Shown here piece after piece: positions 30,895-48,874 of a stretch of DNA of 64,000 nucleotides. The position numbers and the translations under genes are program-made. The stretch's first letter is position 1; each line of letters begins with the position of its first letter. Location: the NCBI GenBank assembly GCA_001657395.1, contig LYSY01000002.1, positions 248,001 to 312,000 of the forward strand, written 5' to 3'. The notes under the pieces were generated by a model. That model was not told the DNA's origin. It saw only the letters and a list, made by a program, of their open reading frames with translations, and did not search any database. This DNA comes from Rhodospirillales bacterium BBD 1991-14. Lineage in GTDB: Bacteria; Pseudomonadota; Alphaproteobacteria; Kiloniellales; Kiloniellaceae.

Positions 30895-31383
30895 CTATTC
30901 CTTGCGGAACAGGTAGTAGCGGCCCGGCCGCACCCCTTCCGGCAGGGCGATGACCTCGGCCTGCGGCCAGACCACGTCCTGGTCCGAAGCCACGACCCCG
31001 CCGCTGGCCAGCAGCAGCGGCAGTTGCCGGGCGACGAAGGCGGAGAGCCGGGCATCGTGGTCCGGCCGGCCGCTGCCCAGATCGGCATGGATCAGCGCGA
31101 TGCGGCCGTGAAAGCGCTCCACCGCGCCCTCAAGGGTCGCCTCCAGCGGGCCCTCGAAGAGATGGTCCGCGTCGGGAATGCAGTCCGGATGGGCGGCCAC
31201 CTTGCGTTCGAAGACGAAGATCTCGCGGCCCGGACAGCGCGTGCGCAGGTGGTCGAACGTACGTCCGTTGCCCAGCCCCAGTTCGAAGACCGGACCGGGC
31301 AGCGCCCCGACCAGGTCGACTGCCGCGTCGATGCAGGCCCGCTGGGCCTCCAGCCGGCGGATAAAGCTGTCGAGACGGCTCAC
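30895..31383 (-). CDS. Small class I SAM-dependent methyltransferase
   Basis: About 162 residues from a GTG at 31383 (MSRLDSFIRRLEAQRACIDA). The SAM-binding glycine loop is VFELGLGNGRTFDHLR, with later LIHADLGSGRPDHDA and the terminal PGRYYLFRKE. It matches my memory of the Methyltransf_17 type, whose members begin the same way. The frame remains open up to 31554 through a low-complexity SLRTDSLRT repeat and into the preceding gene, so the start is uncertain. It is the last gene of a minus-strand set after the ABC exporter and the cyclic-nucleotide-binding protein. Substrate unknown. Confidence 0.75.
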   Translation of the reverse strand: MSRLDSFIRRLEAQRACIDAAVDLVGALPGPVFELGLGNGRTFDHLRTRCPGREIFVFERKVAAHPDCIPDADHLFEGPLEATLEGAVERFHGRIALIHADLGSGRPDHDARLSAFVARQLPLLLASGGVVASDQDVVWPQAEVIALPEGVRPGRYYLFRKE

Positions 31384-31507
31384 GAGGAGGCAGGTCCGCA
31401 GGCTGTCGGTCCGCAGGCTGTCCGGGCGGACAGAGCAGCGATAGGCACGCCGGCCGCTGCCGGGTCTTGCCTCTGCAAAGCGGTGATGCGGGATCCGGGC
31501 TCGGTCC

Positions 31508-31957
31508 TCATCCAGCCGCCCGGGCAACGCGAAGCTGCGTCGTCGTCTGCTCAAGGCGGTGGGCCAGCACGCGCATCACCTCCACACCCATCTCCGGAAA
31601 GTCCATGATCATGCGAAAGAAGAGATCCTTCGTGATCTTTAAGGTGGTGAGTTGAGAGGCCGCTTCAACAGAGGCGGTGCGCGGAATATCACAAAGAATG
31701 GCGATTTCGCCGATAATCTCGTTCTCGGCCAGTTGGGCCACCCGCAGCGGGCCGTCATCCCCCTCGACCAGGATGTCCGCCTTGCCGTCCAGCACGATGT
31801 AGGCCGCATCGCCCATTTCGCCCTGATTGAACAGCCGCTGGCCCGGTTTGAAGGTCAGGCGTTCGCTGGCAAAGGCCATGAGTTTCAGCTTTGCCGGATC
31901 GATCTCCGAAAAGATCGGTATCCGCCGCAGGATCTCGACTTCTTGATCAATGCTCAT
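31508..31957 (-). CDS. Stand-alone cyclic-nucleotide-binding domain protein
   Basis: A 149-residue CRP-fold sensory domain without a DNA-binding helix-turn-helix. The beta-barrel is complete (FKPGQRLFNQGEMGDAAYIV, DGKADILVEGDDGPLRVAQL), and the phosphate-binding cassette reads GEIAILCDIPRTASVEA with the Glu and Arg needed for cyclic nucleotide. Only the C-helix follows (RVLAHRLEQTTTQLRVA). It lies 69 bases downstream of the ABC exporter gene and probably shares its transcript, so it may regulate that exporter by direct contact. A membrane adenylate cyclase is encoded 15 kb away. Confidence 0.92.
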   Translation of the reverse strand: MSIDQEVEILRRIPIFSEIDPAKLKLMAFASERLTFKPGQRLFNQGEMGDAAYIVLDGKADILVEGDDGPLRVAQLAENEIIGEIAILCDIPRTASVEAASQLTTLKITKDLFFRMIMDFPEMGVEVMRVLAHRLEQTTTQLRVARAAG

Positions 31958-32026: not shown

Positions 32027-34744
32027 CTACTCTGCGGCGACCAGCGTTTTGAATGTCGTGCCCTTCTCCCGCAGGTCCTGATAGCTGCCCTGCTCGACCA
32101 GACGACCGTTACCCATCACCAGAATCATCTCGAAGCGGCTGGCCAGTTCCGGGCGCTGCAGCGTCCAGATGACGCCGCGCCCCTTGCGCCGTTCGAGGAT
32201 GCTCTCGATCAGGCGCACCTGGCTGGAACGGTCGAGCACCGAGGCGGCCTCGTTGACGATCAGGAGATCCGGGTTCTTGAGCAGCGCCCGGCCGATCGCC
32301 AGCTTCTGGCGCTGACCGGCGGAAAGCCGGCCGCCGCCGATGCCGACGTTGTAGTCCAGGCCAACCTCGATCACCGTCTGACGCAGACCGAGGTCGTCGA
32401 GCACTTCGAGGAGGGTCCGTCCGATGGTCTCTTCCGCCTGGGCCTGGCCGTAAGCCAGCCGCCCGAACAGGATGTTGTCCTGCAGCGAGGCGGCGGCGTT
32501 GTAGGCATCGGCGCGGTAGAACTCGACCGCATCGGGACAGTCCCGCTCCAGGCGTTCGGCCAGGCGCCGGCGCGCATCGATCAGACGCTCGGCCATGCTC
32601 TCGTCGACCAGCCCCAGGCGGTGGCGGGCCTCGACATACTTGAACGGCAGGCCCAGCAGCAGCTGGCGTGCCGCCTTGTCCAGCGCCTCGATGCCCAGGT
32701 TGTCGACGCGCGTGACGATGGTGCGGAACTCCGGCAGGTCGTCGTCGCTGATGAAGCTGAACTGCTCGAAGAAGGGATGGCCCGGCGGCAGATCGGCGAA
32801 GATCTCCACCATGGTCTTGGCAATGGTCACGCCCATGGTGACGAAGTTGTCGGTGAGCCCTGCCTCGCGGAGGATGGTGCGCACCGTTTCGTTGCTGGCC
32901 AGTTCCTCCGACACGAAGTCGTGGCGCCGGGGCGTCCCGAACAGCAGGTTCTCGGCAACGCTGGCGTTGAAGTTGTAGGCATCGGCCTCGAAGCGGATGA
33001 CGAGGTCTTCGTTGCCGCTGGTCGCCAGCCGCTCGATGATCGCGGCGCGGGCCATCAGGATCCCGTCGGCCACATCCGGCTTGCTGACCGGGTCGATGGT
33101 GCCCGTGAGCCCGAAACGATAGGCATCGTCGACAAGGTCCACGGTGGAGAGCACGTCGAGCATGCGCTCGGTGATGTCCGCCTCTCCCTCCGCACCGGCG
33201 GCGTGATAGTCGATCCAGTCGTCGTGGATATCCAAGTCCGGATTGCCGGACCTGCGGCTTTCGGCCCTGTCGAAGGCAGAGGTGGAGTGCTCCGGGTCGG
33301 CGGAGATCACCGGCCGGTGCTTGAGGCCGTAGAGCAGGTTGTTCCGCAGCGAGCCGGTGAAGTGATAGGCGTTCTGGCCGACGTAGGAGATGCGCCGGCC
33401 AGTCACGGCGGCGGGCAGCGCATCGACGTCACGGCCGCCGATGCGCAGTGACCCGGAGCTCGGCTCCAGCAGTCCGGCGAGCAGGAGGCTGAGCTGCTCC
33501 ATCCCGCTGCCGCTCTGGCCCACAACGGCGATGTGCTGGGTGGACTCCGCAGTGAAGCTGACCGACCGCAGCAGCGGGATGTCGTTCTCGTCCAGGAGCG
33601 AGAGAGCGGAAGCGACCAGGGGGCCCTCCAGCGGCGCACCCGGGTCGTTCTCGACGGCCTGGCGCTCAGGATCGATCAGCGCCGGGGGCTGGAACTGTTC
33701 GATCACCTGCTCGTACTTGATCTGCACGTCCAGGCGTTGCTGGTCCCAGTTGATCAGTTCCTTGATCGGCGCCGGCAGGTCCTTGTAGGCGGCGATGACC
33801 GCCACCAGGGCACCGATGTCCAGATGGCCGGTGATCGCCAGCAGACCGCCGCCGAGGTAGAACATGAAGGGCGTGATCTGGGCCAGCAGGTTGTTCAGGA
33901 ACTTGACGAAGAACTTACGCTGATAGATCTCGTAGCGGATCTTGAAGATGCGGCCCAGACGCGCCGTCAGATCCGCGCGCTCGTAGTTGGTGGTGTCGTT
34001 GGCGTGGATCTCGACCGCACCGTCGATCAGCTCGCCGATCCGCCCGGCCAGCATGCGCGCCGTCAGCTGCCGCTCGCGCCCCAGCACCAGAATGCGCCGC
34101 CGCAGCCGCGGGATCAGAAAGGCCTGGAACAGCACCACCGCGGCCGCGACCAGACCGAGCCAGATCGACTGCACCATGATGAAGGCCAGCGCAGTCAGCG
34201 CCTGTCCGCCGAGGAAGATGGGCGTCGCGAAGGCATCGCCGATGAAGCCGCCCAGCGGCTCCACCTCGTCCTTGATCATCGTCGCCATTTCGGACGGCTT
34301 GACGCGGCGGATCTGCGGCAGCGGGAAGCGCAGGATGCGGTCGCTCAGTTCGTAGCGCAGACGCCGCAGCAGGCGTTCGCCCAAGCGCCCCTTGCGGGTG
34401 TTGATGACGAACTTGAAGAGCCCGTTGACGATGACCAGGCTGAGAAAGACCAGACTGAGGGCGGTCAGCATGTCGGCCTGAGCCAGGGACAGGCCGTCGA
34501 ACAGCAGCACCGGCTCCCCGAAAAGGCTCTCGCCGAAAGGCATATGCAGCCGGAAAAACGGCTGCGTGGCGCCGGGGCCGTCGAAGCCCTGACCCTGGAT
34601 GCCCTGGTTGACGATCTGCTTGGGCAGGTTCAGGGAGAAGTAGTAGAAGGGCAGCGATACGATAACCAGAAGCAGAATGAAGAGCTGCTCGGGCCGGCTG
34701 TGGTGCCACACGTATTTGAAGATGTTTGGTTCCATACCCATCAC
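32027..34744 (-). CDS. ABC exporter with split, degenerate nucleotide-binding domain
   Basis: A 905-residue half-transporter; ordinary members are about 600. An N-terminal exporter membrane domain (about 1-340, helices LFILLLVIVSLPFYYFSL, MLTALSLVFLSLVIVNGLF and others) is followed by an ATPase domain interrupted by about 280 residues between its Q-loop and signature. Walker A is GQSGSGME (409-416), with Met in place of the phosphate-binding Lys. Walker B is LLIVNE, with Asn for Asp. The switch His is absent (WTLQRP, 860-864). The signature LSAGQ (807-811) is normal. Q-loop-like motifs recur at about 454-473, 587-603 and 745-761 (NAYHFTGSLRNNLLYG, DAYNFNASVAENLLFG, DAYNAAASLQDNILFG). Starts GTG 34744, ATG 34741 and ATG 34735 all lack a clear ribosome site. 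Substrate unknown. Confidence 0.88.
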   Translation of the reverse strand: MMGMEPNIFKYVWHHSRPEQLFILLLVIVSLPFYYFSLNLPKQIVNQGIQGQGFDGPGATQPFFRLHMPFGESLFGEPVLLFDGLSLAQADMLTALSLVFLSLVIVNGLFKFVINTRKGRLGERLLRRLRYELSDRILRFPLPQIRRVKPSEMATMIKDEVEPLGGFIGDAFATPIFLGGQALTALAFIMVQSIWLGLVAAAVVLFQAFLIPRLRRRILVLGRERQLTARMLAGRIGELIDGAVEIHANDTTNYERADLTARLGRIFKIRYEIYQRKFFVKFLNNLLAQITPFMFYLGGGLLAITGHLDIGALVAVIAAYKDLPAPIKELINWDQQRLDVQIKYEQVIEQFQPPALIDPERQAVENDPGAPLEGPLVASALSLLDENDIPLLRSVSFTAESTQHIAVVGQSGSGMEQLSLLLAGLLEPSSGSLRIGGRDVDALPAAVTGRRISYVGQNAYHFTGSLRNNLLYGLKHRPVISADPEHSTSAFDRAESRRSGNPDLDIHDDWIDYHAAGAEGEADITERMLDVLSTVDLVDDAYRFGLTGTIDPVSKPDVADGILMARAAIIERLATSGNEDLVIRFEADAYNFNASVAENLLFGTPRRHDFVSEELASNETVRTILREAGLTDNFVTMGVTIAKTMVEIFADLPPGHPFFEQFSFISDDDLPEFRTIVTRVDNLGIEALDKAARQLLLGLPFKYVEARHRLGLVDESMAERLIDARRRLAERLERDCPDAVEFYRADAYNAAASLQDNILFGRLAYGQAQAEETIGRTLLEVLDDLGLRQTVIEVGLDYNVGIGGGRLSAGQRQKLAIGRALLKNPDLLIVNEAASVLDRSSQVRLIESILERRKGRGVIWTLQRPELASRFEMILVMGNGRLVEQGSYQDLREKGTTFKTLVAAE

Positions 34745-34986
34745 GGACCCGGGCTAACCGCTTGATCCAGCAGCCAGCTTCCGCTTTGCTCCCGTCTTTT
34801 CCGCTTGGCAACTTAGCCCATGGTCCGCAGCGGGTAAACGCCTGCCCCGGAGTGCGGCGGCAAACCCGGATCACGGCTTTGTGGGCTCCCGCCGGCGAGG
34901 ATTGAGTGGGGTTCCGGGTCGGCGGGGCCTATGTCATAGTCCCGCCGGCGCCCGGCGCATCGTCTAGGGAAGAGGGAGGAGGCCGC

Positions 34987-36213
34987 GTGAAGGATAGCCG
35001 CAAGGGCAAGCGTGTCCTCATCTACAGCCACGACAGCTTCGGCCTGGGCCACCTGCGCCGCTGCCGGGAGATCGCCCATACCCTGGCGGAAGCCCACAAG
35101 GCGCTCTCGGTGCTGATCCTCTCCGGGTCCCCCATCATCGGATCCTTCGATTTCCGCGCCCGGGTCGATTTCGTGCGGGTGCCCGGCGTGATCAAGCTGC
35201 GCAACGGCGACTACACCTCCCTGGCGCTGCACATCGACATCGAGCAGACCATGGAGATGCGCGCCTCCATCATCGAGCACACCGCCAAGGCCTTCGACCC
35301 GCACCTCTTCATCGTCGACAAGGAACCGCTCGGCCTGCGTGGGGAGGTGGAGGGCACCCTCGCCATGCTGCATCAGCGGGGCACGCCCTGTGTTCTGGGT
35401 CTGCGCGACGTCATGGACGAGCCCGGGCTGCTGGCACCGGAGTGGGAGCGCAAGCAGGTGGCACCGGCGCTGGCGCGCTACTACGACGACATCTGGGTCT
35501 ATGGTCTGCCCCAGGTCTGCGACCCGCTGGAGGGCATCGACCTGCCGGACTCCGTTCGCAAGAAGATGACTTACACGGGCTACCTGCGCCGCAGCATGCC
35601 GGAGGCGGGCGCCCAGGTGACCCTGGAGAAGATCGGCGAGCCCTATATCCTGGTCACGGCCGGCGGCGGCGGCGACGGTGAGGCGATCATCGACTGGGTG
35701 CTGCGCGCCTACGAGGGCGATGCGGAAATGCCCCATCCGGCCCTGCTGGTTCTCGGACCCTTCATGAACAGCGAGGTCCAGGCGGATCTGCAGGCGCGGG
35801 CGGCGAAGCTGCCCAACGTCGAAGCCATCACCTTCGAAGCGCGCATCGAGAACCTGGTCGACCGCGCGGTCGGCATGGTCTGCATGGGCGGCTACAACAC
35901 CTTCTGCGAAGTGCTCTCCTTCGACAAGCGTGCGCTGGTGGTGCCACGCACGGAACCGCGCATGGAACAGCACATCCGCGCGTCCCGGGCGCAGGATCTG
36001 GGGCTGATCCGCATGCTGCGCGACGACGGCGTGCGCGATGCGAAGCTCATGGCAACGGCGCTGCGCAACCTGCCGCAGCAGAGCCGCCCGTCGGAGGTGG
36101 TGATCCCGGGCCTGCTGGACGGCGCCGGGAACGTCGTGCGCCTGGCCGACCATTGGCTTGAGCAAGGCGGCAGCGGACTGAGCCTGGCCGAAGCAACGCA
36201 GGGGCAGGCGTGA
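34987..36213 (+). CDS. GT28/MurG-like glycosyltransferase
   Basis: A 408-residue GT-B-fold protein. The N-terminal glycine-rich entry is YSHDSFGLGHLRRCREIAHT, and the donor-site half carries LVTAGGGGDGEAIIDWVL and VCMGGYNTFCEVLSFDKRAL, then VVPRTEPRMEQHIRA, all typical of MurG/UGT-type enzymes. It is homologous to the enzyme at 39428. I chose the GTG at 34987 because GGGAGGAGG lies just upstream; an ATG 81 bases earlier is open. It is the first of seven tightly packed plus-strand genes, divergent from the unusual ABC exporter. Sugar and acceptor unknown. Confidence 0.85.
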   Translation: MKDSRKGKRVLIYSHDSFGLGHLRRCREIAHTLAEAHKALSVLILSGSPIIGSFDFRARVDFVRVPGVIKLRNGDYTSLALHIDIEQTMEMRASIIEHTAKAFDPHLFIVDKEPLGLRGEVEGTLAMLHQRGTPCVLGLRDVMDEPGLLAPEWERKQVAPALARYYDDIWVYGLPQVCDPLEGIDLPDSVRKKMTYTGYLRRSMPEAGAQVTLEKIGEPYILVTAGGGGDGEAIIDWVLRAYEGDAEMPHPALLVLGPFMNSEVQADLQARAAKLPNVEAITFEARIENLVDRAVGMVCMGGYNTFCEVLSFDKRALVVPRTEPRMEQHIRASRAQDLGLIRMLRDDGVRDAKLMATALRNLPQQSRPSEVVIPGLLDGAGNVVRLADHWLEQGGSGLSLAEATQGQA

Positions 36214-37640
36214 CCGAACCCGCAGTCCGGCGCCCGGCGGCGGAGACGCCCCCTGCAGACGCCCTCCCAGACACTGCCGCAGACACTGCCGCAGCGCAGG
36301 GCGCGGCAGGCGGCAGCCCCGGGCAGGATCAAAGGCCGGCCCGAAAGCAGGTTCGAAATCAGGTCCAAGGGCCGATCCAGGGACCGACCTTAGGGGTCGT
36401 GCTGAAGGGCTATCCGCGCCTTTCGGAAACCTTCATCGCCCAGGAACTCCTGGCCCTCCAGCAGCGCGGCTTCGGCCTGCGCCTGATTTCCCTGCGCCAT
36501 CCGACGGACCGCAAGCGCCACCCGGTTCATGACGAGATCACGGCGCCGGTCTGCTATCTGCCGGAATACCTCTACCAGGAAGCGCTGCGCGTGCTGGCCG
36601 GCTGGTGGCACGCCCGGCGCCTGCCCGGATATCGCGCGGCGTGGCGTGCCTTCCTGAAGGACCTGCGGCGCGATCTGACGCCCAACCGGGTGCGGCGCTT
36701 CGGCCAGGCCTGCGTGCTGGCCGCCGAGTTGCCGGCGGAGGTGGAGAGGCTCTACGCCCACTTCCTGCACACGCCGGCCTCGGTGGCGCGCTATACCAGC
36801 CTGCTGCGGGGACTGCCCTGGAGCGTGTCGGCCCATGCGAAGGACATCTGGACGATCCCGGACTGGGAAAAGCGCGAGAAGCTGGCAGAGGCGGACTGGC
36901 TGGTCACCTGCACGGCCTACGGCGCCCGGCACCTGCGCGACCTGGCGCCGGAGCCCGGGCGCGTGACGCTGCTCTACCACGGGCTCGACCTCACCCGCTT
37001 CGCCGCACCTGCGCCCCAGGAGACCGGGGCCCCGCCGCACGACGGCAGCGCGCCCGACCGCCGGGTCCGCCTGCTTTCGGTCGGCCGCCTGGTCGAGAAA
37101 AAGGGCTATGACGACCTGCTGCCGGCGCTCGCGGCGCTGCCGGACAGCCTGCACTGGGACCTCACCCATGTCGGCGGCGGCCCATTGGCTGAAAAACTGA
37201 AGGCGCAGGCCGCCACGCTCGGCCTGGGCGCGCGGATTGCGTGGCGCGGCCCCCTTGCGCAGGAGGAGATTCTGGCCCTCTACCGCCAGAGCGACCTCTT
37301 CGTCCTGGCCAGCCGTATCGCCAGGAGCGGCGACCGCGACGGGCTGCCCAACGTTCTCATGGAGGCGCAAAGCCAGGGTCTGGCCTGTCTTGCCACTGCC
37401 GTCGCCGCCATTCCGGAACTGATCGAGGACGGCGTCAGCGGCGCCCTGGTTCCGCCCGGGGATCCGGCCGGCCTTGCCGCGGCTCTCGCCGCGCTGATCG
37501 CCGACCCGGCACGGCGCGCGCGCCTCGGCAGGGCCGGCCAGGCCCGGGTGCGCGGCGAATTTGATATGAAGCGCGGAATCGATACGCTAGACAGTTTGTT
37601 CAGGGCCGGCGGGGCGAATACCCTTGCCGGATCGCTATAG
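36210..37640 (+). CDS. GT4-family glycosyltransferase
   Basis: A 476-residue GT-B enzyme of the colanic-acid type. After a low-complexity N-terminus of about 60 residues (rich in A, P, Q; DTAADTAA duplicated) come GVVLKGYPRLSETFIAQELL, HAKDIWTIPDWEKREKLAEA and LLYHGLDLTRF. The donor site follows with LLSVGRLVEKKGYDDLLPAL, and the family's second Glu in RSGDRDGLPNVLMEAQSQGL. It transfers a sugar from a nucleotide donor with retention, probably to a lipid-linked or surface glycan. Its ATG overlaps the stop of the preceding gene by four bases. Confidence 0.9.
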   Translation: MTEPAVRRPAAETPPADALPDTAADTAAAQGAAGGSPGQDQRPARKQVRNQVQGPIQGPTLGVVLKGYPRLSETFIAQELLALQQRGFGLRLISLRHPTDRKRHPVHDEITAPVCYLPEYLYQEALRVLAGWWHARRLPGYRAAWRAFLKDLRRDLTPNRVRRFGQACVLAAELPAEVERLYAHFLHTPASVARYTSLLRGLPWSVSAHAKDIWTIPDWEKREKLAEADWLVTCTAYGARHLRDLAPEPGRVTLLYHGLDLTRFAAPAPQETGAPPHDGSAPDRRVRLLSVGRLVEKKGYDDLLPALAALPDSLHWDLTHVGGGPLAEKLKAQAATLGLGARIAWRGPLAQEEILALYRQSDLFVLASRIARSGDRDGLPNVLMEAQSQGLACLATAVAAIPELIEDGVSGALVPPGDPAGLAAALAALIADPARRARLGRAGQARVRGEFDMKRGIDTLDSLFRAGGANTLAGSL

Positions 37641-37659
37641 GATTTGTGTATTCAGCGTT

Positions 37660-38790
37660 ATGCGTATTGCCTTTTATGCTCCACTGAAGCCCCCGACACA
37701 TGTGAATCCATCCGGTGACCGGCTGATGGGGCGGCTGCTCATGCAGGCGCTCGAACAGGCCGGCCACGATGTCACGCTGGCCAGCCGCTTTCGCAGCCGC
37801 GAGGCCGTCGGGGACCCGGAGCGCCAGGCACGCCTGCAGAAAGTGGGGGGCGGCCTGGCCAAGCGGCTGATCCGCCGCTACAAGGCGCTGCCGGCGCGCC
37901 AGCGCCCGCAGCTCTGGTTCACCTACCACCTCTATTACAAGGCACCGGACTGGATCGGCCCGGCGGTTGCCGCAGCGCTGAAGATCCCCTACGTGGTCGC
38001 CGAGGCCTCGGTCGCCCACAAGCGGGCCAGCGGCCCCTGGGCCGCCAGCCACCGTTCGGTCCTGCAGGCCCTGGAGCAGGCTGCCGCGGTCGTCACCTTC
38101 AACCCCCTGGACGCCAAGCTGATCCCCGATCAGGACAAGGTGCGGCCGCTGAAGGCCTTTCTCGACACCGCGCCCTACGACGCCGTGCGCCCGCTGCGGG
38201 GCGAGTACCGCCAGGCCCTGGCCAAGGAGCAGCATCTGAACCCGGAGCTGCCCTGGCTGCTGGCCGCCGCCATGACGCGGCCGGGCGACAAGCTTGCGTC
38301 CTACCAGCTCCTGGCCCAGGCACTGCGCGCCATCCCCGACATGCCCTGGCAGCTTGTGGTCGCCGGCGACGGCGCCGCCTATGAGGAGGTGCGCCAGGCC
38401 TTCGCCTGGGCCCAGCCGGAGCGGGTGCGCTTTCTCGGGCGGGTCCAGCCGGAGGTCATGCCGGCGCTCTATGCGGCCTGCGACCTGCTGGTCTGGCCGG
38501 CGGTGAACGAGGCCTTCGGCATGGCCCTGCTGGAGGCCCAGGCCGCCGGTCTGCCGGTCGTTGCCGGGCGCAATCCGGGCGTGGAGACCCTGGTCGAGGA
38601 GGGCGTGACCGGTTACCTCTGCGATCCCGGGCTGGCGACCTTTGCCGCCAGCGTCCGCGAAATCCTGACCCAGACCGCCAGCCGCAGCGCCATGGGCGAG
38701 GCGGCCCCCAGGGTGGTCGCCGAGAACCACAGCCTGCTGGCCGCGGCCCGGCGGCTGAACGCGATCCTGGAAGAAGCGAGCCGCGGGTGA
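37660..38790 (+). CDS. GT4-family glycosyltransferase
   Basis: A 376-residue GT-B enzyme. The N-terminal MRIAFYAPLKPPTHVNPSGD holds the glycine/proline entry loop. Later comes the donor-site half: LVVAGDGAAYEEVRQAF, RFLGRVQPEVMPALYAACDL, and the conserved VNEAFGMALLEAQAAGLPVV with two glutamates. Between them, TYHLYYKAPDWIGPAVA and YVVAEASVAHKR mark the acceptor side. I chose the ATG at 37660 on resemblance to other family starts, 19 bases after the previous stop; there is no strong ribosome site. The next gene overlaps its stop. Confidence 0.88.
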   Translation: MRIAFYAPLKPPTHVNPSGDRLMGRLLMQALEQAGHDVTLASRFRSREAVGDPERQARLQKVGGGLAKRLIRRYKALPARQRPQLWFTYHLYYKAPDWIGPAVAAALKIPYVVAEASVAHKRASGPWAASHRSVLQALEQAAAVVTFNPLDAKLIPDQDKVRPLKAFLDTAPYDAVRPLRGEYRQALAKEQHLNPELPWLLAAAMTRPGDKLASYQLLAQALRAIPDMPWQLVVAGDGAAYEEVRQAFAWAQPERVRFLGRVQPEVMPALYAACDLLVWPAVNEAFGMALLEAQAAGLPVVAGRNPGVETLVEEGVTGYLCDPGLATFAASVREILTQTASRSAMGEAAPRVVAENHSLLAAARRLNAILEEASRG

Positions 38791-39404
38791 CGGCGCTGCT
38801 GCTGCTCCGCCACGGCCCCACCGCCTGGAACGAGCAGGGGCGCCTGCAGGGCCGCAGCGACCAACCGCTCTCCGCCGCGGGACGGGCCGCCGTTGCGACA
38901 TGGCGCCTGCCCGCCGAGGCCGCCGCGGCGGCCTGGATCTGCAGCCCCCTGAAGCGGGCCCGCGAAACCGCCGAAATCCTGCGCCGCCGCCTGCCGGCAG
39001 GCGGCCCGAAATCCCCCGCTCTGGGACAGGACGCGCGGCTGATCGAGGCCGACTGGGGCGACTGGGAGGGGCAGCGCCTGGACGACCTCCGCACCGCCGG
39101 CGGATCGGCGATGGCCGCCAACGAGGCCCGGGGATTGGACTTTCGCCCGCCGAACGGCGAGAGTCCCAGGGCCGTGCAGAAAAGGGTCCTGCCATGGCTG
39201 CGCGAACAGGCGGGCGAGGACCGCGATGTCGTTGCGGTGACGCACAAAGGTGTGATCAGGGCCATCTATGCCCTGGCCAGCGGATGGGATATGCGTGACA
39301 GGCCGCCCGTAAAGCTGAAATCCGCGCGCGCGCACCGCTTTGCCCTGGCCGCGGACGGCCGGCCCTCGGTTGCGGCCCTGAACATCGCCCTCGACGGCGC
39401 GTAA
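38787..39404 (+). CDS. Histidine-phosphatase (phosphoglycerate-mutase-like) protein
   Basis: A 205-residue cytoplasmic phosphatase. The catalytic LLLLRHGPTAWNEQGRLQGRSD holds the RHG motif, and later motifs CSPLKRARETAEIL, EADWGDWEG and the second histidine VAVTHKGVIRAIYAL are intact. Such enzymes dephosphorylate sugar phosphates or phosphoglycerate derivatives, among others. Set between glycosyltransferase genes, it probably removes phosphate from a glycan intermediate. GTG start overlapping the previous stop (GTGA). Confidence 0.9.
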   Translation: MTALLLLRHGPTAWNEQGRLQGRSDQPLSAAGRAAVATWRLPAEAAAAAWICSPLKRARETAEILRRRLPAGGPKSPALGQDARLIEADWGDWEGQRLDDLRTAGGSAMAANEARGLDFRPPNGESPRAVQKRVLPWLREQAGEDRDVVAVTHKGVIRAIYALASGWDMRDRPPVKLKSARAHRFALAADGRPSVAALNIALDGA

Positions 39405-39427: not shown

Positions 39428-40687
39428 ATGAACCGGGAGGCAATCGAAGGCATGGCGGAAGAGCGCTGCGACGTGATGCTTTATGTCCAGCACCTCCTGG
39501 GGATCGGGCACATCCGCCGCGGCGTCGTCCTGGCGCGGGCGTTCCAGCGGGCCGGCCTGAAGGTCGTGTTCGTCACCGGCGGCCTGCCGATCGGCGATCT
39601 CGGCCTGCCCGGGGTAGAGGTGGTGCAGCTGCCGCCGGCCCGCGCCCAGGACGAGACCTTCGCGGTCATCGTGGACGCCCAGGACCGGCCCATCGACGAG
39701 GCCTGGATGGCGGCGCGGCGAGAACAGCTCTTGGACCTCTATCGCCGCAAGCGCCCACGGGTGGTGATGATCGAGCTCTATCCCTTCGGCCGGCGCAAGA
39801 TGCGCTTCGAACTGGAGCCGCTGGTGGCCGAGGCGCGCCGGGCCGACCCGCCGGCGTTGATCGCCTGTTCGCTGCGCGACATCGTCAACCGCCCGGAGCG
39901 CCCGGAGAAGGCAAGCTGGATGCTGGAGACCTTTCGCCGCGATTTCGACCTGCTCTACGTGCACGGCGATCCGGCCTTCTTTCGCATCGAGACCAGCTTT
40001 CCCGAGGCCGCGGCGCTGTCCGAGCGTCTGCGCTACACCGGCTACGTCACCGAGGCGGGCCGCGTGCTTCCGGCCCCCAAAGCCGACGATCCGGAGGCCG
40101 GGCATGGCGAGGTGATCGTCTCCGTCGGCGGCGGAGCGGTCGGCCGCCATCTGGTCGAAGCGGCCCTGGCGGCGCGGCCGCTGACGGTGTTCGGCGCGAC
40201 CCCCTGGCGCATTCTGATCGGCCCCAACATGCCGGAGCCCGAGTACCGGCAACTGGCCGCCCTCGCCCCGCCAGGCGTCGTCGTGGAGCGGGCACGCAGC
40301 GATTTCGCCCTGCTGCTGACACGCGCGCGCCTGTCCATCAGCCAGGCCGGCTACAACACCATCATGGAGGTCTTGGCCGCGGGCCTGCCGGGCGTCGTCG
40401 TGCCCTTTGCCGGCGGCACCGAGACCGAGCAGACCCTGCGCGCCGAGCGCCTGGCCGCCGACGGCTACCTGACGGTGGTCGACGAACAGGGGCTGAGCGG
40501 CGAGAGTCTGGCGGCAGGCATTGCCCGCGCCCTTGAGAAACGGACGACCAACACCCGCGAGCCCTTCCGCATGGAGGGAGCCGACGAAACCGCCCGCCAC
40601 CTGCAGGCGCTGCTGGCGGCACCGGATGCCGGAACCGAGGCAACCCCGGCCCCACCCCCGGCCTCGTCTTTGGAGCAGGGCGCGTGA
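39428..40687 (+). CDS. GT28/MurG-like glycosyltransferase (second copy type)
   Basis: A 419-residue GT-B enzyme related to the one at 34987: YVQHLLGIGHIRRGVVLARA at the N-terminus, then IVSVGGGAVGRHLVEAAL and SISQAGYNTIMEVLAAGLPG, VVPFAGGTETEQTLRAERLA in the donor half. The C-terminal 25 residues are proline/alanine-rich. The pair of homologous enzymes at each end of the cluster suggests two sequential sugar additions. It starts 24 bases after the phosphatase gene; its stop overlaps the deacetylase start. Confidence 0.87.
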   Translation: MNREAIEGMAEERCDVMLYVQHLLGIGHIRRGVVLARAFQRAGLKVVFVTGGLPIGDLGLPGVEVVQLPPARAQDETFAVIVDAQDRPIDEAWMAARREQLLDLYRRKRPRVVMIELYPFGRRKMRFELEPLVAEARRADPPALIACSLRDIVNRPERPEKASWMLETFRRDFDLLYVHGDPAFFRIETSFPEAAALSERLRYTGYVTEAGRVLPAPKADDPEAGHGEVIVSVGGGAVGRHLVEAALAARPLTVFGATPWRILIGPNMPEPEYRQLAALAPPGVVVERARSDFALLLTRARLSISQAGYNTIMEVLAAGLPGVVVPFAGGTETEQTLRAERLAADGYLTVVDEQGLSGESLAAGIARALEKRTTNTREPFRMEGADETARHLQALLAAPDAGTEATPAPPPASSLEQGA

Positions 40688-41499
40688 GCGACTGGGCGGC
40701 CCTGGAGCGGGAGCTGGACCGCTGGGAGGAAGCCGGACAGGCGGCGACCCTCTGGTGGCGCGACGATGACGCCACGGCCCGGACCGCCGCCCTCGACCGC
40801 CTGCTCGACCTTGCCGACCGCCACGGCCTGCCCCTGGCCCTCGCGGTGATCCCGCAGGCCGCCGAGACCGCCCTCACAGACAGCCTGGAGGGCCGCGCTG
40901 CGGGGGTCCGGGTGCTGCAGCACGGCTTCGCCCACCGCAACCACGCCGGCCCGGACGCCAAGAAATGCGAACTCGTGGCTGCCGCGCTGCGCCCCGAAAT
41001 CGCCGGGGAGCTGCGCCAGGGCCAGGCCCTGCTGGCCGCGCTCTGCAGCGAGCGGCTGGTCCCTGCGCTGGTGCCGCCCTGGAACCGCATCGATGCCGAC
41101 CTGGTGGCGGCCCTGCCATCCCTCGGCTTCGGGGGCCTTTCGACCTACAAGGCCCGCCGCCTGGCAGAGCCCGTCGCCGGGCTGCGGCAGGTCAACTGCC
41201 ATCTCGACATCATGCAGTGGCGCCCGCAGCGCCGCTTCCTGGGAACCGCGGCCGCCCTGCAGCTTCTGGTCGGGCACCTGGAGGCACGGCGGACAGGGGA
41301 AGCCGATGCGGACGAAGCCACCGGCATCCTGACCCATCATGCCGTCCACGACGCGGAGGCCTGGCGCTTCCTGGAAGACCTGCTGCCGCGCCTCGCCGGC
41401 CATCCGGCCAGCCGCTTCCCGCCGCCCGATACGCTCTTCGCCGCCCCGGCGGACAGGGTCCCGGCGTCTTCGCCCCAATCCGTTTCGGGGGCGGCATGA
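40684..41499 (+). CDS. Polysaccharide-deacetylase-like protein
   Basis: A 271-residue protein with a degenerate NodB-type fold: LWWRDDDATARTAALDRLL (Asp-Asp pair), RVLQHGFAHRNHAG (the HxxxH metal site), PALVPPWNRIDADLVAAL and ILTHHAVHDAEAWRFLEDLL. This short, signal-less form occurs next to glycosyltransferase genes in related bacteria. It may deacetylate an N-acetyl sugar on the inner side of the membrane. The GTG start overlaps the previous stop by four bases; the stop overlaps the next gene. Confidence 0.85.
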   Translation: MSDWAALERELDRWEEAGQAATLWWRDDDATARTAALDRLLDLADRHGLPLALAVIPQAAETALTDSLEGRAAGVRVLQHGFAHRNHAGPDAKKCELVAAALRPEIAGELRQGQALLAALCSERLVPALVPPWNRIDADLVAALPSLGFGGLSTYKARRLAEPVAGLRQVNCHLDIMQWRPQRRFLGTAAALQLLVGHLEARRTGEADADEATGILTHHAVHDAEAWRFLEDLLPRLAGHPASRFPPPDTLFAAPADRVPASSPQSVSGAA

Positions 41500-42020
41500 T
41501 CGTGCTCCGCTACCCCTCCCGCGCGCTGTTCGGGGACTACCTGCGCTCCGGCGCCGGCCTTGTGGTCGGCCTCGGCGTCCTGGTCGCCGTACCGCCGAAC
41601 ATTCCCGTGGTGGTGATCTTCGGCGGGATCGCCGTGCTCTTTGGCGTGTTCGGCCTGCGGACCCTGCAGCGCCAGAAGCTGGAGGTGGCGCTGACCGAAA
41701 ACGAGATCGCCTGCCGCGGTCTCGGCACCAAGGTTCTGGCCTGGTCCGACCTGGACTTCATGCGCCTGCGCTACTTCGGCCGGCGCGGCAAGCGCGGTGT
41801 CTTCGGCGCCGGCTTCATGGAGCTGAAGCTGAAAGGGGCGGGCACCGCCCTCACCTTCGAATCCAGCCTGGAGGGCTTCGAGAAGGTCGCGGAAATGGCC
41901 GCTCGTTCGTACAAGAACAATGGCCTCAGTCTCGATCCCGCGACGGCCAGCAACCTGATCGACCTGGGCATCGACAGCGATGCGGCGGTGGGGTGCGATT
42001 CCCCGCCAAACGTCCTATAA
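41496..42020 (+). CDS. Small membrane protein with PH-like domain
   Basis: A 174-residue protein of no named family that I recognise. Two hydrophobic helices near the N-terminus (VVGLGVLVAVPPNIPVVV, IFGGIAVLFGVFGL) are followed by a beta-rich cytoplasmic part, VALTENEIACRGLGTKVLAW, SDLDFMRLRYFGRR and FMELKLKGAGTALTFESSLE, resembling bacterial PH-like domains. The end has a helix and an unconserved tail. Its ATG overlaps the deacetylase stop; it ends the cluster 34 bases before the peptide ABC transporter. It might anchor the glycosyltransferases at the membrane (inference). Confidence 0.8.
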   Translation: MIVLRYPSRALFGDYLRSGAGLVVGLGVLVAVPPNIPVVVIFGGIAVLFGVFGLRTLQRQKLEVALTENEIACRGLGTKVLAWSDLDFMRLRYFGRRGKRGVFGAGFMELKLKGAGTALTFESSLEGFEKVAEMAARSYKNNGLSLDPATASNLIDLGIDSDAAVGCDSPPNVL

Positions 42021-42054
42021 CCCTGCGATATTGCCTGGGGACCGGGGAGCCACT

Positions 42055-43992
42055 GTGCGGAACCTTTTGCAGATTAAGGACCTGCGGATCAGTTTCGATC
42101 TGCCGGAGGGGCGCCTTGAAGCGGTACGCGGCGTAAGCTTCCGCGTCCCGGCCGGGCGCACTGTCGCCCTGGTCGGCGAGTCCGGGTCCGGCAAATCGGT
42201 GGTCAGCCAGGCGATCATGGGCATCCTGCCGCGCAGCGCCAAGATCGACAGCGGGCGGATCCTGTTCAACGACCCGGCCAGCTCCAGCGACGTCATCGAC
42301 ATCGCCAGCCTGCACTCCGACAGCGAGGCCATGCGCGCCATCCGCGGCAGCCGCATCTCGATCATTTTCCAGGAACCCATGACGTCGCTGTCGCCGGTGC
42401 ACACCGTCGGCAACCAGATCCTCGAAGCCCTGCACCTGCACCGGAACGTCACCGCCAGCGAAGGCCTGGCACTGGCGACGGAGATGCTGCGGCTGGTGGG
42501 CTTTCCCGATCCGGCCAAGGCGATCAAGACCTACCCCTTCGAACTCTCCGGCGGTCTGCGCCAGCGCGCCATGATCGCCATGGCGCTGGTCTGCCGGCCG
42601 GCGCTGCTGATCGCCGACGAGCCGACCACCGCCCTCGACGTGACGATCCAGGCGCAGATCCTGAAGCTGATCAAGGACCTGCAGTCGGAGCTGGGCATGG
42701 CGGTGCTGATGATCACCCACGACCTGGGCGTGGTCGCCAACGTCGCCGACGAAGTGGTCGTCATGTACCACGGCGAGATCATGGAGAGCGGCACGCTGGA
42801 GGACATCTTCCGGGCCCCTGCGCATCCCTATCTCTCCGCCCTGCTGCGCGCCGTGCCGCGCTTTCACATGGAGCCCGGCGAGCGGCTGGTGCCGATCCGC
42901 GAAATCAAGAAGCAGGCGGACGGCGCCTTCCTGGGCGAAAAGATCGAACGCTCCAAAGACGCCGATGGAACGATCCTGAAGATCGAAGGGCTGACCAAGC
43001 GCTTCACCATCCGCAAGTCCGGCCTCTTCGGCGGCAGCAGCAGCGACGTGCTGGCCGTCGACGACGTCACGCTGACGGTGCGCCGCGGGGAGTGCCTGGG
43101 CCTGGTCGGCGAGAGCGGCTGCGGCAAGACGACGCTTTCCAAGATGATCATGCGCGCGCTCACCCCGGACAGCGGCAGCATCACCTTCACCGGCGGCCGG
43201 CCCGGCGACGGGGAGACCAACGTCCTGACCCTGGAAAACAAGGCGTTGATGAACTTCCGCAAGCAGATCCAGTTCGTCTTCCAGGACCCCTTCTCCTCGT
43301 TGAATCCGCGCATGACGGTGGGCGAGATCATTGCCGAGCCGCTGGTGATCCACGGCATCGGCACGGCCGCCAGCCGGCGCCGGGTGGTCGAGGAACTGAT
43401 GGGCGTCGTCGGCCTCAACCGCCAGCACGTCCGCCGCTATCCGCACAGCTTTTCCGGCGGCCAGCGCCAGCGCATCGGCATCGCCCGCGCCCTGGCGCTG
43501 CGCCCGCAGTTGCTGATCTGTGACGAGCCGGTCTCGGCGCTGGACGTCTCCATTCAGGCCCAGGTGCTAAACCTGCTGAAGGACCTGAAGGCGGATCTGG
43601 GTCTGACCTACATCTTCATCAGCCATAACCTGGCGGTGGTCGACTACATCGCCGACCGCATCGCGGTGATGTGCCGGGGCGGTCTGGTGGAACTGGCGCC
43701 GCGCGAAAGCCTGTTCCGCGACCCGGTCCACCCCTACACGCGCGCCTTGCTGTCTGCCGTGCCGGAACCGGATCCGCACCAGCGTCTCGACCTGACGGCC
43801 CTGATGGAGGGGCGCGCGTCCGACCCGACGGCCTGGCCCCAGCCCTTCACCATCGCGCCCGGCGGAGATGGCCAGCCGATGACCATGATCGACCTGGGCG
43901 ACGGACATTGGGTGCGCGCGCGCGCCGGCAGCGATCCGGCAGTGCTCACCTGCCGGCCCCAGCCGGCGCGGCAACACGAGGCGAAGGTCTAA
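42055..43992 (+). CDS. Oligopeptide-type ABC transporter ATPase, fused DppD-DppF form
   Basis: A 645-residue protein with two complete ABC ATPase domains in tandem, as in YejF. Domain 1: Walker [13 protein letters not shown], signature [13 protein letters not shown], Walker [10 protein letters not shown]. Domain 2: [36 protein letters not shown]. Each domain ends in the oligopeptide-type C-terminal extension ([12 protein letters not shown] and [12 protein letters not shown]). GTG start at 42055 with GGGGAG upstream. It energises import of peptides, opines or related solutes through the two permeases encoded next. Confidence 0.93.
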
Positions 43993-43997
43993 ACCCC

Positions 43998-44996
43998 ATG
44001 CTGAGCTACTTCGCCCGCCGCCTGCTGGTGATGATCCCGACGCTGCTGGTCATCAGCCTGGTCGTCTTCTTCATCATTCAACTGCCCCCCGGCGACTATC
44101 TGGAAACCCTGATCGCCGAGGAGCAGGCGCGGGGCGAGACCGTCGATCAGGAGCGCATCGCCTTCCTGCGTGAGCAGTACGGCCTCGACAAGCCGATGAT
44201 CGAGCAGTACTGGATCTGGCTGCTCGGCCTGCTGCAGGGCGATCTCGGCTATTCCTTCGAGTTCGAGCTGCCGGTGGTGGAGGTGATCGGCGACCGCTTC
44301 TGGTTCACCGTTGTCCTGGCGCTGGCCACCACGCTCTTCACCTACATCCTTTCCTTTCCCATCGGCATCTATTCCGCCGTGCGGCAGTACTCGGTCGGCG
44401 ACTACGCGGCGACCTTCGTGGGTTACTTCGGCCTGGCGATGCCGAACTTCCTCTTCGCCTTGGTGCTGCTCTACTACGCCAACGTCTGGTTCGGGCTTTC
44501 GATCGGCGGGCTGATGGACCCGCAGTACATCGGTGCGCCCTGGACCGTCGACAAGGTGATCTCGGTCATCAACCATCTCTGGATTCCGATGCTCGTGATC
44601 GGGACCTCCGGTACCGCGGCGATGATCCGCCGCCTGCGCGCCAACATGCTGGACGAACTGCAGCGCCAGTACGTCATCACGGCACGGGCCAAGGGCCTCT
44701 CGCCGATGAAGATCATCCTGAAGTATCCGCTGCGCCTGGCCCTCAACCCCTTCATCGCCGACATCGGTATGATCCTGCCGCAAGTGGTCTCCGGCGCCGC
44801 ACTGGTCTCCGTGGTGATGGATCTGCCGACCAACGGGCCTCTGCTGCTGCGCTCCCTGCAGAGCCAGGACATGTACCTGGCCGGCGCCTTCCTGATGTTC
44901 GAGGCAACGCTGGTGGTGATCGGGGTCTTCATCTCCGACATTCTCCTGGCCATGCTCGATCCGCGCATCCGCCTGGGAGGGGCCTCGTCGAAATGA
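43998..44996 (+). CDS. Oligopeptide-type ABC transporter permease (DppB/YejB family)
   Basis: A 332-residue inner-membrane permease. N-terminal MLSYFARRLLVMIPTLLVIS and FFIIQLPPGDYLETL with the following LREQYGLDKPMIEQYWIWL are diagnostic of the DppB/OppB family. Six hydrophobic helices can be read, and the ATPase-coupling loop appears as YVITARAKGLSPMKIILKYP. It follows the ATPase gene by five bases and overlaps the next permease by four. Peptide substrate is inferred from the family. Confidence 0.93.
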   Translation: MLSYFARRLLVMIPTLLVISLVVFFIIQLPPGDYLETLIAEEQARGETVDQERIAFLREQYGLDKPMIEQYWIWLLGLLQGDLGYSFEFELPVVEVIGDRFWFTVVLALATTLFTYILSFPIGIYSAVRQYSVGDYAATFVGYFGLAMPNFLFALVLLYYANVWFGLSIGGLMDPQYIGAPWTVDKVISVINHLWIPMLVIGTSGTAAMIRRLRANMLDELQRQYVITARAKGLSPMKIILKYPLRLALNPFIADIGMILPQVVSGAALVSVVMDLPTNGPLLLRSLQSQDMYLAGAFLMFEATLVVIGVFISDILLAMLDPRIRLGGASSK

Positions 44997-48040: not shown

Positions 48041-48874
48041 TCACGGCCGCAGGACCATGCCTTCCCTGGCGACCACGGTACCGGGGCGCAATGCTTCGGC
48101 TTCTTCGGCGACGCGGTCCATGAAGTCGTCGTCGTGGCCAGGGTCGTGGTGAAAGATGACCAGCTTGCCGGCGTCGGCCTGGTCGCAGAGCCGGACCCCC
48201 TCCTGCCAGGTGGAGTGCCCCCAGTTGCGGTACTTGGGAAACTCCTCGTCCGTATATGTGCTGTCGTAGATGACGAGATCAGCGCCCTGGATCAGGTCCA
48301 GAATGTTGCGGTCGGGCTTGCCTTCCAGGTGCTCGGTATCGGTCACATAGCAGATCGCATGGCCGCGGAAATCGACCCGGTAGCCGGTGGCGCCGTTGGG
48401 GTGATTGAGCGGTGCGGTGATCAGGCGCACGCCGGGTTTGGGTTCCAGAACGTCCCCGGCGGAGAAGTCGTGGAAGGAGACGTTGGCGGCGAAGATCTTC
48501 GGCGGCACCGGGAACAGGGGCGCGTTCATGAACTGGACCAGCACGTCGTGCAGGGTCAGTTCCGGGATCAGGTGCCCGGCCCAGAGACGGATGCGGTTGC
48601 GCTTGTCGAACAGCGGCGCAAAGAACGGCAGGCCGACGATGTGGTCGTGATGGGTATGGGTGAGGAAGATATCGGCTTCCAGGGGAGAGTTTTCGGTCAG
48701 CTCCCGCCCCAGCGGCCTGAGGCCGGTGCCGGCATCGAAGATCAGCAGCTTCTCGCCGCAACGGATCTCCAGACAGGCTGTGTTGCCCCCGTAGCGAAGG
48801 TGGCTTTCGCCGGGGCAGGAAATCGAGCCCCGGGTGCCCCAGAAACGAACAAAAAAATCGCTACCGTTCTGCAA
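48041..48874 (-). CDS. Metallo-beta-lactamase-fold hydrolase, cyclic-phosphodiesterase-like
   Basis: A 277-residue enzyme beginning VRFWGTRGSISCPGESHLRY, the hallmark of a group of MBL-fold proteins that includes class II cyclic nucleotide phosphodiesterase-like and PhnP-like enzymes. The two-metal site is intact: FLTHTHHDHIVGLPFF, the histidine in LNHPNGATGYRV, the aspartate in CYVTDTEHLEG, and the histidine in LVIFHHDPGHDDDFMDR. The gene lies upstream of the adenylate cyclase on the same strand, so hydrolysis of the cyclase product is an attractive but unproven role. Confidence 0.85.
   Translation of the reverse strand: MQNGSDFFVRFWGTRGSISCPGESHLRYGGNTACLEIRCGEKLLIFDAGTGLRPLGRELTENSPLEADIFLTHTHHDHIVGLPFFAPLFDKRNRIRLWAGHLIPELTLHDVLVQFMNAPLFPVPPKIFAANVSFHDFSAGDVLEPKPGVRLITAPLNHPNGATGYRVDFRGHAICYVTDTEHLEGKPDRNILDLIQGADLVIYDSTYTDEEFPKYRNWGHSTWQEGVRLCDQADAGKLVIFHHDPGHDDDFMDRVAEEAEALRPGTVVAREGMVLRP

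Follow-up and report, generated by a model that had tools for sequence, protein, structure and literature searches.

What can an ABC exporter still do when most of the residues with which it would hydrolyse ATP have gone? The question is raised by a gene in a 64,000-nucleotide stretch of contig LYSY01000002.1 of Rhodospirillales bacterium BBD 1991-14, called here the window. As originally predicted, it is an open reading frame on the minus strand, between positions 32027 and 34744, for a half-transporter of 905 residues. In the alignment of family members the first Met is residue 4 in most homologues, and for this reason the true start is probably the ATG at 34735, which would give a protein of 902 aa. 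We refer to the protein as pseudo-ABC; its parts, with residues counted from the GTG, are:

32030-34744, minus strand: pseudo-ABC half-exporter, 905 aa from the GTG at 34744; stop codon at 32027-32029
33710-34735, minus strand: type IV (ABCB-like) transmembrane domain, residues 4-345 (from Pfam ABC_membrane and conservation)
33497-33520, minus strand: degenerate Walker A, residues 409-416 (GQSGSGME)
33317-33397, minus strand: repeat 1 motif (R1) at the native Q-loop position, residues 450-476
32534-33316, minus strand: extra segment, residues 477-737, the remainder of repeat 1 plus repeat 2
32930-32998, minus strand: repeat 2 motif (R2), residues 583-605
32456-32524, minus strand: repeat 3 motif (R3), residues 741-763, continuing into the native signature region
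32306-32335, minus strand: signature region, residues 804-813 (GGRLSAGQRQ)
32249-32266, minus strand: degenerate Walker B, residues 827-832 (LLIVNE; Asn replaces Asp)
32156-32158, minus strand: switch-His position, residue 863, a Gln (WTLQRPE)

Pfam ABC_membrane matches residues 93-317 with 41.8 bits, above its cut-off of 28. The best NCBIfam match is MsbA (TIGR02203), with 178.4 bits against a cut-off of 602.

The family occurs in alpha- and betaproteobacteria; relatives were found in 59 of 98 genomes, the source genome counted, and 58 of the 59 positive genomes gave one match, i. e. the gene is nearly single-copy across many families. The 105 loci yielded 82 distinct proteins of more than 600 aa, of which 73 remained below 90% identity; counts out of 70 leave out three partial proteins (L090, L099, L102), and L097 was excluded from alignment A1 on account of unreadable letters. 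An additional set comprised 26 more divergent members. That the gene is decaying, or that its missing catalytic residues reflect a sequencing or assembly error, is so improbable that we reject it: the insert is conserved in 73 non-redundant members, dN/dS was 0.12-0.20 in seven pairs, which indicates clear purifying selection, and among the 73 aligned members there was no homologue that had normal Walker motifs and lacked the insert, which was the sign by which such an error was to be recognized. Pseudo-ABC belongs to an old bacterial family. In public records many such proteins are labelled 'ABC transporter ATP-binding protein'.

The losses described for the protein of the window are real: Walker A has no Lys (GQSGSGME), Walker B has Asn for Asp (LLIVNEA), and Gln replaces the switch His. 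Six ATPase residues were scored throughout the family, namely Walker A Lys and Ser/Thr, the Q-loop Gln, Walker B Asp and Glu, and the switch His. Pseudo-ABC of the window retains only Q457 and E832. Among the 70 members K415 is retained in 48, S/T416 in 10, Q457 in 20, D831 in 14, E832 in 33 and H863 in 15; the complete set is found in none of them (0/70), the maximum being four residues, in five members. This supports the predicted non-hydrolysing character, which, as judged from these residues, would hold across the family. The complete set is also absent from the 26 more divergent members (0/26), 12 of which have none of the six residues; three of them, L139-L141, retain Lys, Ser, Asp and Glu. 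On the membrane-domain tree each catalytic site underwent 2-11 state changes. The signature motif LSAGQ had been called normal, which is correct for the window's protein but not for the family, as its Gly (G810) is retained in just 4/70 members. ATP binding is nevertheless possible in part of the family, since the Walker A Lys is so often kept, L139-L141 have four of the six residues, and the signature region is fairly conserved (0.76).

The second peculiarity is the interrupted ATPase domain. The distance from Walker A to the signature is 398 residues, whereas nine other exporters encoded in the source genome have 104-109, and hence about 294 residues are extra. The Q-loop-type motif does occur three times in parallel form, at residues 450-476, 583-605 and 741-763. 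For each motif, a profile of the surrounding 90 residues was set against those of 37 sliding windows, overlapping ones being excluded, and every one of the best eight windows per motif contained at least part of another motif. The pairwise values of this control reached E 7e-15 for R2 against R3 and 8e-5 to 4e-4 for R1 against R2 or R3 where the motif was whole; a separate profile comparison gave E 2e-12 for R2-R3 and E <1e-3 for R1 against each. The match of R1 to the other two is modest. In addition, residues 370-480 align with positions 2-106 of a canonical nucleotide-binding domain (NBD) and residues 733-903 with positions 82-239. These alignments overlap, which means that canonical positions 82-106 are used twice. 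At the level of profiles it is thus shown that the stretch of the NBD that begins at the Q-loop and extends into the helical subdomain has undergone two duplications, so that three tandem copies are present. Structural comparison of the insert model by VIA is in line with this, its top five rows being NBDs of ABC exporters over the same segment (Z 4.7-5.1) and the next two rows being ABC exporters as well, though in loose superposition (rmsd 6.0 and 12.1). All these matches have Z of about 5 or less, under the level that stands alone, and the case for triplication therefore rests mainly on the profile comparisons. The insert alone had no match among PDB sequences at E<=10 and none in Foldseek at E<=0.001; given that its top VIA rows are ABC NBDs, a foreign domain was rejected as its source. 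Across 142 class-wide genomes, the hits of the insert profile at E<=1e-5 were ORFs 876-1386 aa in length, apart from two short matches (308 and 596 aa). Residues N599 and F602 of repeat 2 are identical in 73/73 members. Of the features whose conservation was in question, the insert is conserved, whereas the degenerate residues vary from member to member. The suggestion of a new ABC subtype is supported.

Despite these changes the NBD is predicted to fold completely. In the AlphaFold model of the monomer all 239 of 239 residues of the ComA NBD (3vx4) could be aligned, with an rmsd of 1.6 A and Z 29.9. The conservation pattern is inverted relative to an active exporter: in 23 pseudo-ABC members the membrane domain (0.806) is above the NBD core (0.699) and Walker A stands at 0.70, whereas 20 orthologues of another exporter from the same lineages, for which three of 30 loci were dropped, gave 0.686, 0.804 and 0.95, respectively.

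The genes that neighbour pseudo-ABC in the window are:

30895-31554, minus strand: S-adenosylmethionine methyltransferase-like gene (Pfam Methyltransf_17), a neighbour in 51/75 loci
31508-31957, minus strand: cyclic-nucleotide-binding-domain (CNB) protein, 149 aa, with Pfam cNMP_binding as its sole Pfam domain; the partner
34906-36213, plus strand: GT28-type glycosyltransferase-like gene, divergent neighbour
36210-37640, plus strand: GT4 glycosyltransferase
37624-38790, plus strand: GT4 glycosyltransferase
38787-39404, plus strand: histidine phosphatase family gene
39428-40687, plus strand: GT28-type (weakly MurG-like) glycosyltransferase-like gene
40684-41499, plus strand: polysaccharide deacetylase-like gene (Pfam under cut-off here; so annotated in related regions)
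41980-43992, plus strand: fused OppD-OppF type importer ATPase
43671-44996 as listed, plus strand: Opp/Dpp permease B, true start probably near 43977
44993-46168, plus strand: Opp/Dpp permease C
46286-47611, minus strand: class III nucleotidyl-cyclase-like gene (Pfam Guanylate_cyc; co-occurrence)
48041-48874, minus strand: MBL-fold hydrolase (Pfam)

The CNB gene follows pseudo-ABC directly on the same strand in 68/75 loci and is fused to it in one more. Four of the six loci without a CNB neighbour are cut contigs, which brings the count to 68/71 loci with a usable flank. In further lineages the CNB domain is fused in all seven long divergent proteins scanned (7/7). Its phosphate cassette is intact (Gly 69/69, Glu 66/69, Arg 69/69). 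The CNB partner is a likelier sensor than the inserted repeats, which had been proposed to sense a ligand and are extra Q-loop/helical copies. The other suggestion, a regulated pair with a second ABC subunit, was borne out in altered form: the constant partner is the CNB protein, and a second ABC exporter was found near pseudo-ABC in 0/75 loci by a search of low sensitivity, whose queries recovered pseudo-ABC itself in 15/75. This near-constant linkage, together with the fusions, ties an ABC architecture to cyclic-nucleotide binding.

Taken as a whole, the neighbouring genes form a glycan cluster that also includes an Opp importer, a gene resembling a cyclase, and an MBL hydrolase, the latter resembling NCBIfam models of RNase Z and cyclic-nucleotide phosphodiesterase, all far below cut-off. 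The window's cyclase is present in 52/58 genomes with the ABC gene (absent from six) and in 7/38 without it, a co-occurrence that was tallied by hand and for which Fisher's test ignores relatedness. In 35/58 genomes the cyclase lies within 25 kb of the ABC gene on one contig (distances checked); the cyclase genes found close to the cluster do not constitute a single orthologous group. MFS genes occur near pseudo-ABC in some regions. In Ruegeria a fused pseudo-ABC/CNB protein lies outside any glycan cluster.

In Sinorhizobium the cluster very probably corresponds to the PPP surface-polysaccharide locus of S. meliloti (smb21252-smb21271; PMC10128002), whose gene content and order fit the cluster around the rhizobial orthologue by order and product names, not by locus tag. 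The gene itself is not named in the portion of that account available to us. For this surface polysaccharide, which reportedly protects Sinorhizobium against a peptide antibiotic, pseudo-ABC is a candidate for the membrane step. MsbA2 of S. meliloti was rejected as the counterpart, as its tag and operon (smb21188-smb21191) differ (PMC3687685, in part). The tags of the cluster are absent from PMC12239276 and PMC7268258, and the accessible parts of PMC5498481, PMC5539429 and PMC3484140 contain nothing on the gene. In the mostly open-access literature on degenerate or inactive ABC proteins, CNB domains, helical subdomains, the cluster and its tags, we found no description of the protein.

The decayed ATP residues, the tripled piece and the nucleotide-sensing partner make it probable that pseudo-ABC belongs to a surface-sugar system, as a part under signal control, and is no ordinary pump. 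The interpretation we somewhat favour is a non-hydrolysing, CNB-controlled component of surface-glycan assembly, the glycan role being suggested by the gene neighbourhood. Pseudo-ABC would be homologous to half-transporters of the ABCB/MsbA type and probably homodimeric, having kept the membrane domain and the NBD fold, lost residues of ATP hydrolysis and tripled the Q-loop/helical segment. Cyclic nucleotide on the CNB partner could then replace ATP as the signal that sets the conformation of NBD and membrane domain. The extra helical subdomains could serve as a docking or coupling surface for the CNB partner and possibly for glycosyltransferases too, and the membrane domain could act in the adjoining surface-glycan pathway as a regulated gate or flippase that is not driven by ATP. 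More tentatively, the protein could be a cyclic-nucleotide-gated, ATP-independent ABC-derived flippase or channel in which a diffusible messenger bound to the CNB subunit drives the NBD dimer in place of ATP, with the tripled helical subdomain as the enabling adaptor. The family may be regarded as a natural experiment on the abilities of an ABC exporter that does not hydrolyse ATP.

A rather doubtful, though by no means negligible, alternative is that pseudo-ABC moves nothing and, like SUR, is a purely regulatory or scaffold protein, which in response to a membrane or periplasmic signal keeps the glycosyltransferases, the Opp importer or the cyclase in place or switches them. Drifting ATPase residues beside a strongly conserved membrane domain, the constant CNB neighbour and a cluster containing an Opp importer and a cyclase-like gene all agree with it, but the five annotated regions, whose gene tables are incomplete, list no other ABC exporter, so that a transport role would fill a gap; MFS genes are near in some. 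It is unlikely that the protein still depends on ATP as an exporter, whether by binding the nucleotide and not hydrolysing it or by forming a heterodimer in which it is the inactive half and the other is a canonical half-exporter encoded elsewhere in the genome. Lys415 in 48/70 members, the residues kept by L139-L141 and the presence in its own genome of nine further exporters that have Walker A and a signature would allow this, but the low-sensitivity search described above found no linked exporter, 12/26 divergent members have none of the six residues, and the catalytic sites change freely on the tree. The degenerate sites of working exporters, by contrast, show no deviation among orthologues in the part of PMC7756269 available.

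It is very unlikely that pseudo-ABC serves as the membrane effector in a cyclic-nucleotide defence system similar to Pycsar. There is indeed similarity between the CNB protein and the CNB portion of Pycsar effectors (E 7e-15), as well as between the cyclase and PycC (E 1.3e-19 with the PADLOC model, the best stretch being the cyclase domain only), yet these likenesses are those of shared domains, and the gene is nearly single-copy in many families and usually sits within a glycan cluster, not in a patchy island. Pycsar effectors join a CNB domain to a TIR or membrane part; the fused divergent members combine a membrane domain with a CNB domain, and the 149-aa protein of the window is CNB alone. 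PADLOC also matched pseudo-ABC to mad3 (E 2.5e-12, NBD end only).

Compared with known systems, pseudo-ABC has the membrane domain and NBD fold in common with type IV ABC exporters (MsbA, ABCB1, ComA, PCAT1, TM287/288), from which it differs in its non-conserved ATPase residues and the threefold Q-loop/helical segment. SUR1/SUR2 and CFTR are ABC proteins turned regulator or channel; with pseudo-ABC, in the favoured interpretation, they would share an ABC exporter fold serving a non-pump role, and SUR structures were also among the rows of the structural comparison of the pseudo-ABC model. SUR1/SUR2 and CFTR still bind and use ATP and, unlike pseudo-ABC, are not known to have a tripled segment. 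TAP and TmrAB are examples of exporters with one degenerate site. In such exporters Walker, switch and signature residues are non-canonical, as in pseudo-ABC, but one site is active and the degenerate one constant according to the accessible part of PMC7756269, whereas pseudo-ABC has no complete site and its residues drift. HetC of Nostoc, as far as described in the available part of PMC10986499, likewise joins an ABC exporter to a CNB-type domain. Unlike in pseudo-ABC, this domain is N-terminal and bound ppGpp, a peptidase is present, and one ATPase residue is essential to the function of HetC.

The original prediction described a half-exporter with a long interruption of its ATPase domain, a threefold Q-loop motif and non-canonical catalytic residues. 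All of these features are present, and the reading frame is genuine and complete. It encodes 905 amino acids from a GTG start at 34744 to the stop at 32027; the first Met of most homologues corresponds to residue 4. The gene, here called pseudo-ABC, and the neighbours considered below are located in the window as follows:

31508-31957, minus strand: cyclic-nucleotide-binding (CNB) protein
32030-34744, minus strand: pseudo-ABC
34906-36213 and 39428-40687: two distantly related GT28-type glycosyltransferases in one cluster
41980-46168: Opp-type importer
46286-47611: cyclase-like protein

Pfam assigned residues 93-317 to an ABC membrane region and split ABC_tran into two stretches. Walker A and the signature motif are 398 residues apart; in nine further exporters encoded by this genome the distance is 104-109. 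The full model (mean pLDDT 85.9) aligned across the entire nucleotide-binding domain (NBD) of ComA. In sequence and predicted fold the protein is an ABC exporter.

For each of the Q-loop-type motifs (R1, residues 450-476; R2, 583-605; R3, 741-763), a 90-residue profile was compared with 37 windows sliding across the protein, overlapping windows being excluded. Every one of the eight best windows shown per motif contained another motif, at least in part. E-values went down to 7e-15 between R2 and R3 and were 8e-5 to 4e-4 for R1 against R2 or R3 with the motif whole. A canonical profile was made from eight NBDs encoded by this genome; residues 370-480 matched its positions 2-106 (E 1e-32), and its positions 82-239 were matched by residues 733-903 (E 8e-33). 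Because these alignments overlap at canonical positions 82-106, the Q-loop and the next helix are used twice; R2 is a third copy of the Q-loop segment (E 5e-4 against the canonical profile). In four genomes of a class-wide search, the profile of the insert (residues 477-737) matched not only itself but the third repeat as well (E 3e-6 to 8e-6). The predicted secondary structure recurs in each repeat, i.e. a strand, a short helix bearing NxLxG, then helices. With the insert-only model (pLDDT 89.7) Foldseek gave no significant match. With VIA the first five rows were ABC-exporter NBDs, matched over one segment (e.g. MsbA 416-492; Z 4.7-5.1, rmsd 2.5-3.2 over 70-77 residues), which is weak alone and agrees with triplication. 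A further 26 members, from rhizobia, Azospirillum, Ruegeria and others, are for the most part more divergent; most of the 26 have a related stretch with Asn and a hydrophobic core at all three repeat places, and some have lost the Gly of the motif. The segment is shown to be tripled, mainly by the sequence profiles.

The catalytic residues were counted in 70 full-length, non-redundant members, the window's own included. The canonical residue is retained at Lys415 in 48, Ser/Thr416 in 10, Gln457 in 20, Asp831 in 14, Glu832 in 33 and His863 in 15. No member has all six; the maximum is four, in five sequences. A Walker A GK[S/T] occurs in four of 73 listed members (L060, L076, L084, L093). The remnants vary by lineage: betaproteobacterial members have the Walker B Asp without the Lys, most others the Lys with Asn. 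A quick membrane-domain tree gave 5 state changes for Lys, 6 for Ser/Thr, 8 for Gln, 2 for Asp, 11 for Glu and 10 for His. None of the 26 further members has all six residues and 12 have none. Two findings count against loss of these residues. Four of the six (Lys, Ser, Asp, Glu) are present in L139-L141, three of the 26, and residues 804-815, the signature region, have a conservation of 0.76 despite the lost Gly. L139-L141 may stand nearer to an ATP-binding ancestor; their ORFs (1092-1133 amino acids, in G448, G452 and G339) lack the Q-loop Gln, the switch His and LSGGQ. At the sequence level, the catalytic residues of the family drift. In contrast, the degenerate sites of working exporters are described in a review as constant among orthologues (PMC7756269). 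Pseudo-ABC probably does not hydrolyse ATP.

The gene is still under selection. In seven pairs dN/dS was 0.12-0.20 for the whole gene and 0.10-0.35 for the insert. Whereas in a canonical exporter the motor is most conserved, in pseudo-ABC it is the membrane part and the three repeat motifs. In 23 pseudo-ABC members the majority residue had a mean frequency of 0.806 in the membrane domain, 0.699 in the NBD core and 0.70 in Walker A; the corresponding values in 20 orthologues of the canonical exporter, from the same lineages, were 0.686, 0.804 and 0.95. Over the 70 members, conservation was 0.71 in the membrane part and 0.73, 0.80 and 0.75 in the repeat motifs.

The gene was found in 59 of 98 genomes (E<=1e-80; own genome counted; two with a fragment, G008 and G057), 58 of the 59 having a single match. 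One GTDB genome scan gave 75 strong loci, whose record titles name alpha- or betaproteobacteria (or a genus thereof) or Proteobacteria only, and two weak ones, in an Anaerolineae and a Rhodospirillaceae record. In a phylum sample the family profile matched 27 of 398 genomes, all within the window's class, where the insert profile was found in 44 of 142 genomes (140 genera). Among 72,556 plasmid records 266 carry a relative, 224 of them from Rhizobium or Sinorhizobium. Three genomes of the phylum sample (G126, G175, G207) have two divergent copies each, at separate places.

Pseudo-ABC is linked to the CNB protein (about 149 amino acids). In 68 of 75 loci the CNB gene immediately follows that of pseudo-ABC in the same orientation (median gap 53 bases, counted from the last aligned base), and at L112 the domain is fused in frame. 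Four of the six loci without it (L090, L099, L102, L104) end within the gene, therefore the domain is present in 69 of 71 loci with flank; no CNB gene was found downstream at L076 and L084. Pfam placed a C-terminal CNB domain in all seven long proteins scanned (Azospirillum sp. B510, Ruegeria conchae, Aestuariispira and four others). The phosphate-binding cassette is intact in the 69 aligned copies, fused ones included (Gly 69, Glu 66, Arg 69; Asp replaces Glu in three). Adjacency and fusion are strong, though indirect, evidence that the two proteins form a complex.

Around pseudo-ABC the window has divergent glycosyltransferase, histidine phosphatase, deacetylase-like, Opp-type importer, cyclase-like and MBL hydrolase genes, a set also seen in records of Rhizobium, Mesorhizobium, Sinorhizobium and Azospirillum and absent from Ruegeria. 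In flanks of up to 8 kb, the 75 loci had the glycosyltransferases GT28a in 50 and GT28b in 48 (about six and five rows, respectively, being cross-matches to the other GT28 at 23-28% identity), the fused importer ATPase OppDF in 45 (nine rows being the ABC gene itself, at distance 0), GT4a in 41, the deacetylase-like gene in 38, GT4b in 37, the histidine phosphatase in 34, the cyclase in 12 and MBL in 6. No substrate-binding protein was found for the window's importer, whereas rhizobial and betaproteobacterial clusters have its gene between OppDF and OppB. By hand tally, 52 of the 58 genomes that carry the ABC gene also have the window's cyclase, versus 7 of the 38 that lack the ABC gene (Fisher p 1e-12, ignoring relatedness); in 35 of the 58 it lies within 25 kb on the same contig. 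Key residues of cyclases near the cluster are unlike between lineages, so a cyclase recurs, though not as one gene. Among those compared (the window's, L054, L069-L100, L145, L146, L151), positions that we take to be the metal-binding Asp are retained where covered, and the presumed purine-specifying and transition-state positions vary by lineage; the window's has Lys for the usual Arg. At L146 (Mesorhizobium pWSM1497), a stretch of about 32 kb surrounding the cluster contains five genes with adenylate/guanylate-cyclase domains and one DUF3095 gene.

In S. meliloti the order is GT4, deacetylase, MBL, nucleotide-sugar dehydrogenase, cyclase, Opp genes, glycosyltransferases, methyltransferase, pseudo-ABC, CNB and FkbM, then LacI and purine genes. 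By numbering and product names, this fits smb21252-smb21271, the PPP locus (PMC10128002); smb21257 is listed as a truncated adenylate cyclase (PMC12542648). Nine PPP genes are reported to be required for an uncharacterised surface polysaccharide, and insertions to lower fitness with phazolicin (PMC10128002); seven of the nine are reported as up-regulated under predation (PMC10315480). Pseudo-ABC is probably one of the nine. Literature searches on inactive ABC proteins, CNB domains, helical subdomains and the cluster tags turned up no paper on the protein.

We propose that pseudo-ABC would act as a homodimer, with CNB-bound nucleotide as the conformational signal, the repeats as a putative adaptor and the membrane domain as a gate or flippase for the glycan. 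In the closest alternative, it would be a regulator that transports nothing. Whether gate, flippase or such a regulator, pseudo-ABC does not pass as a working exporter by its residues.

On pSymB of S. meliloti 1021 (L195, 841400-845200), the orthologue is broken into two overlapping frames of 237 and 762 amino acids; compared with strains 2011 and Rm41, the match here has one extra base.
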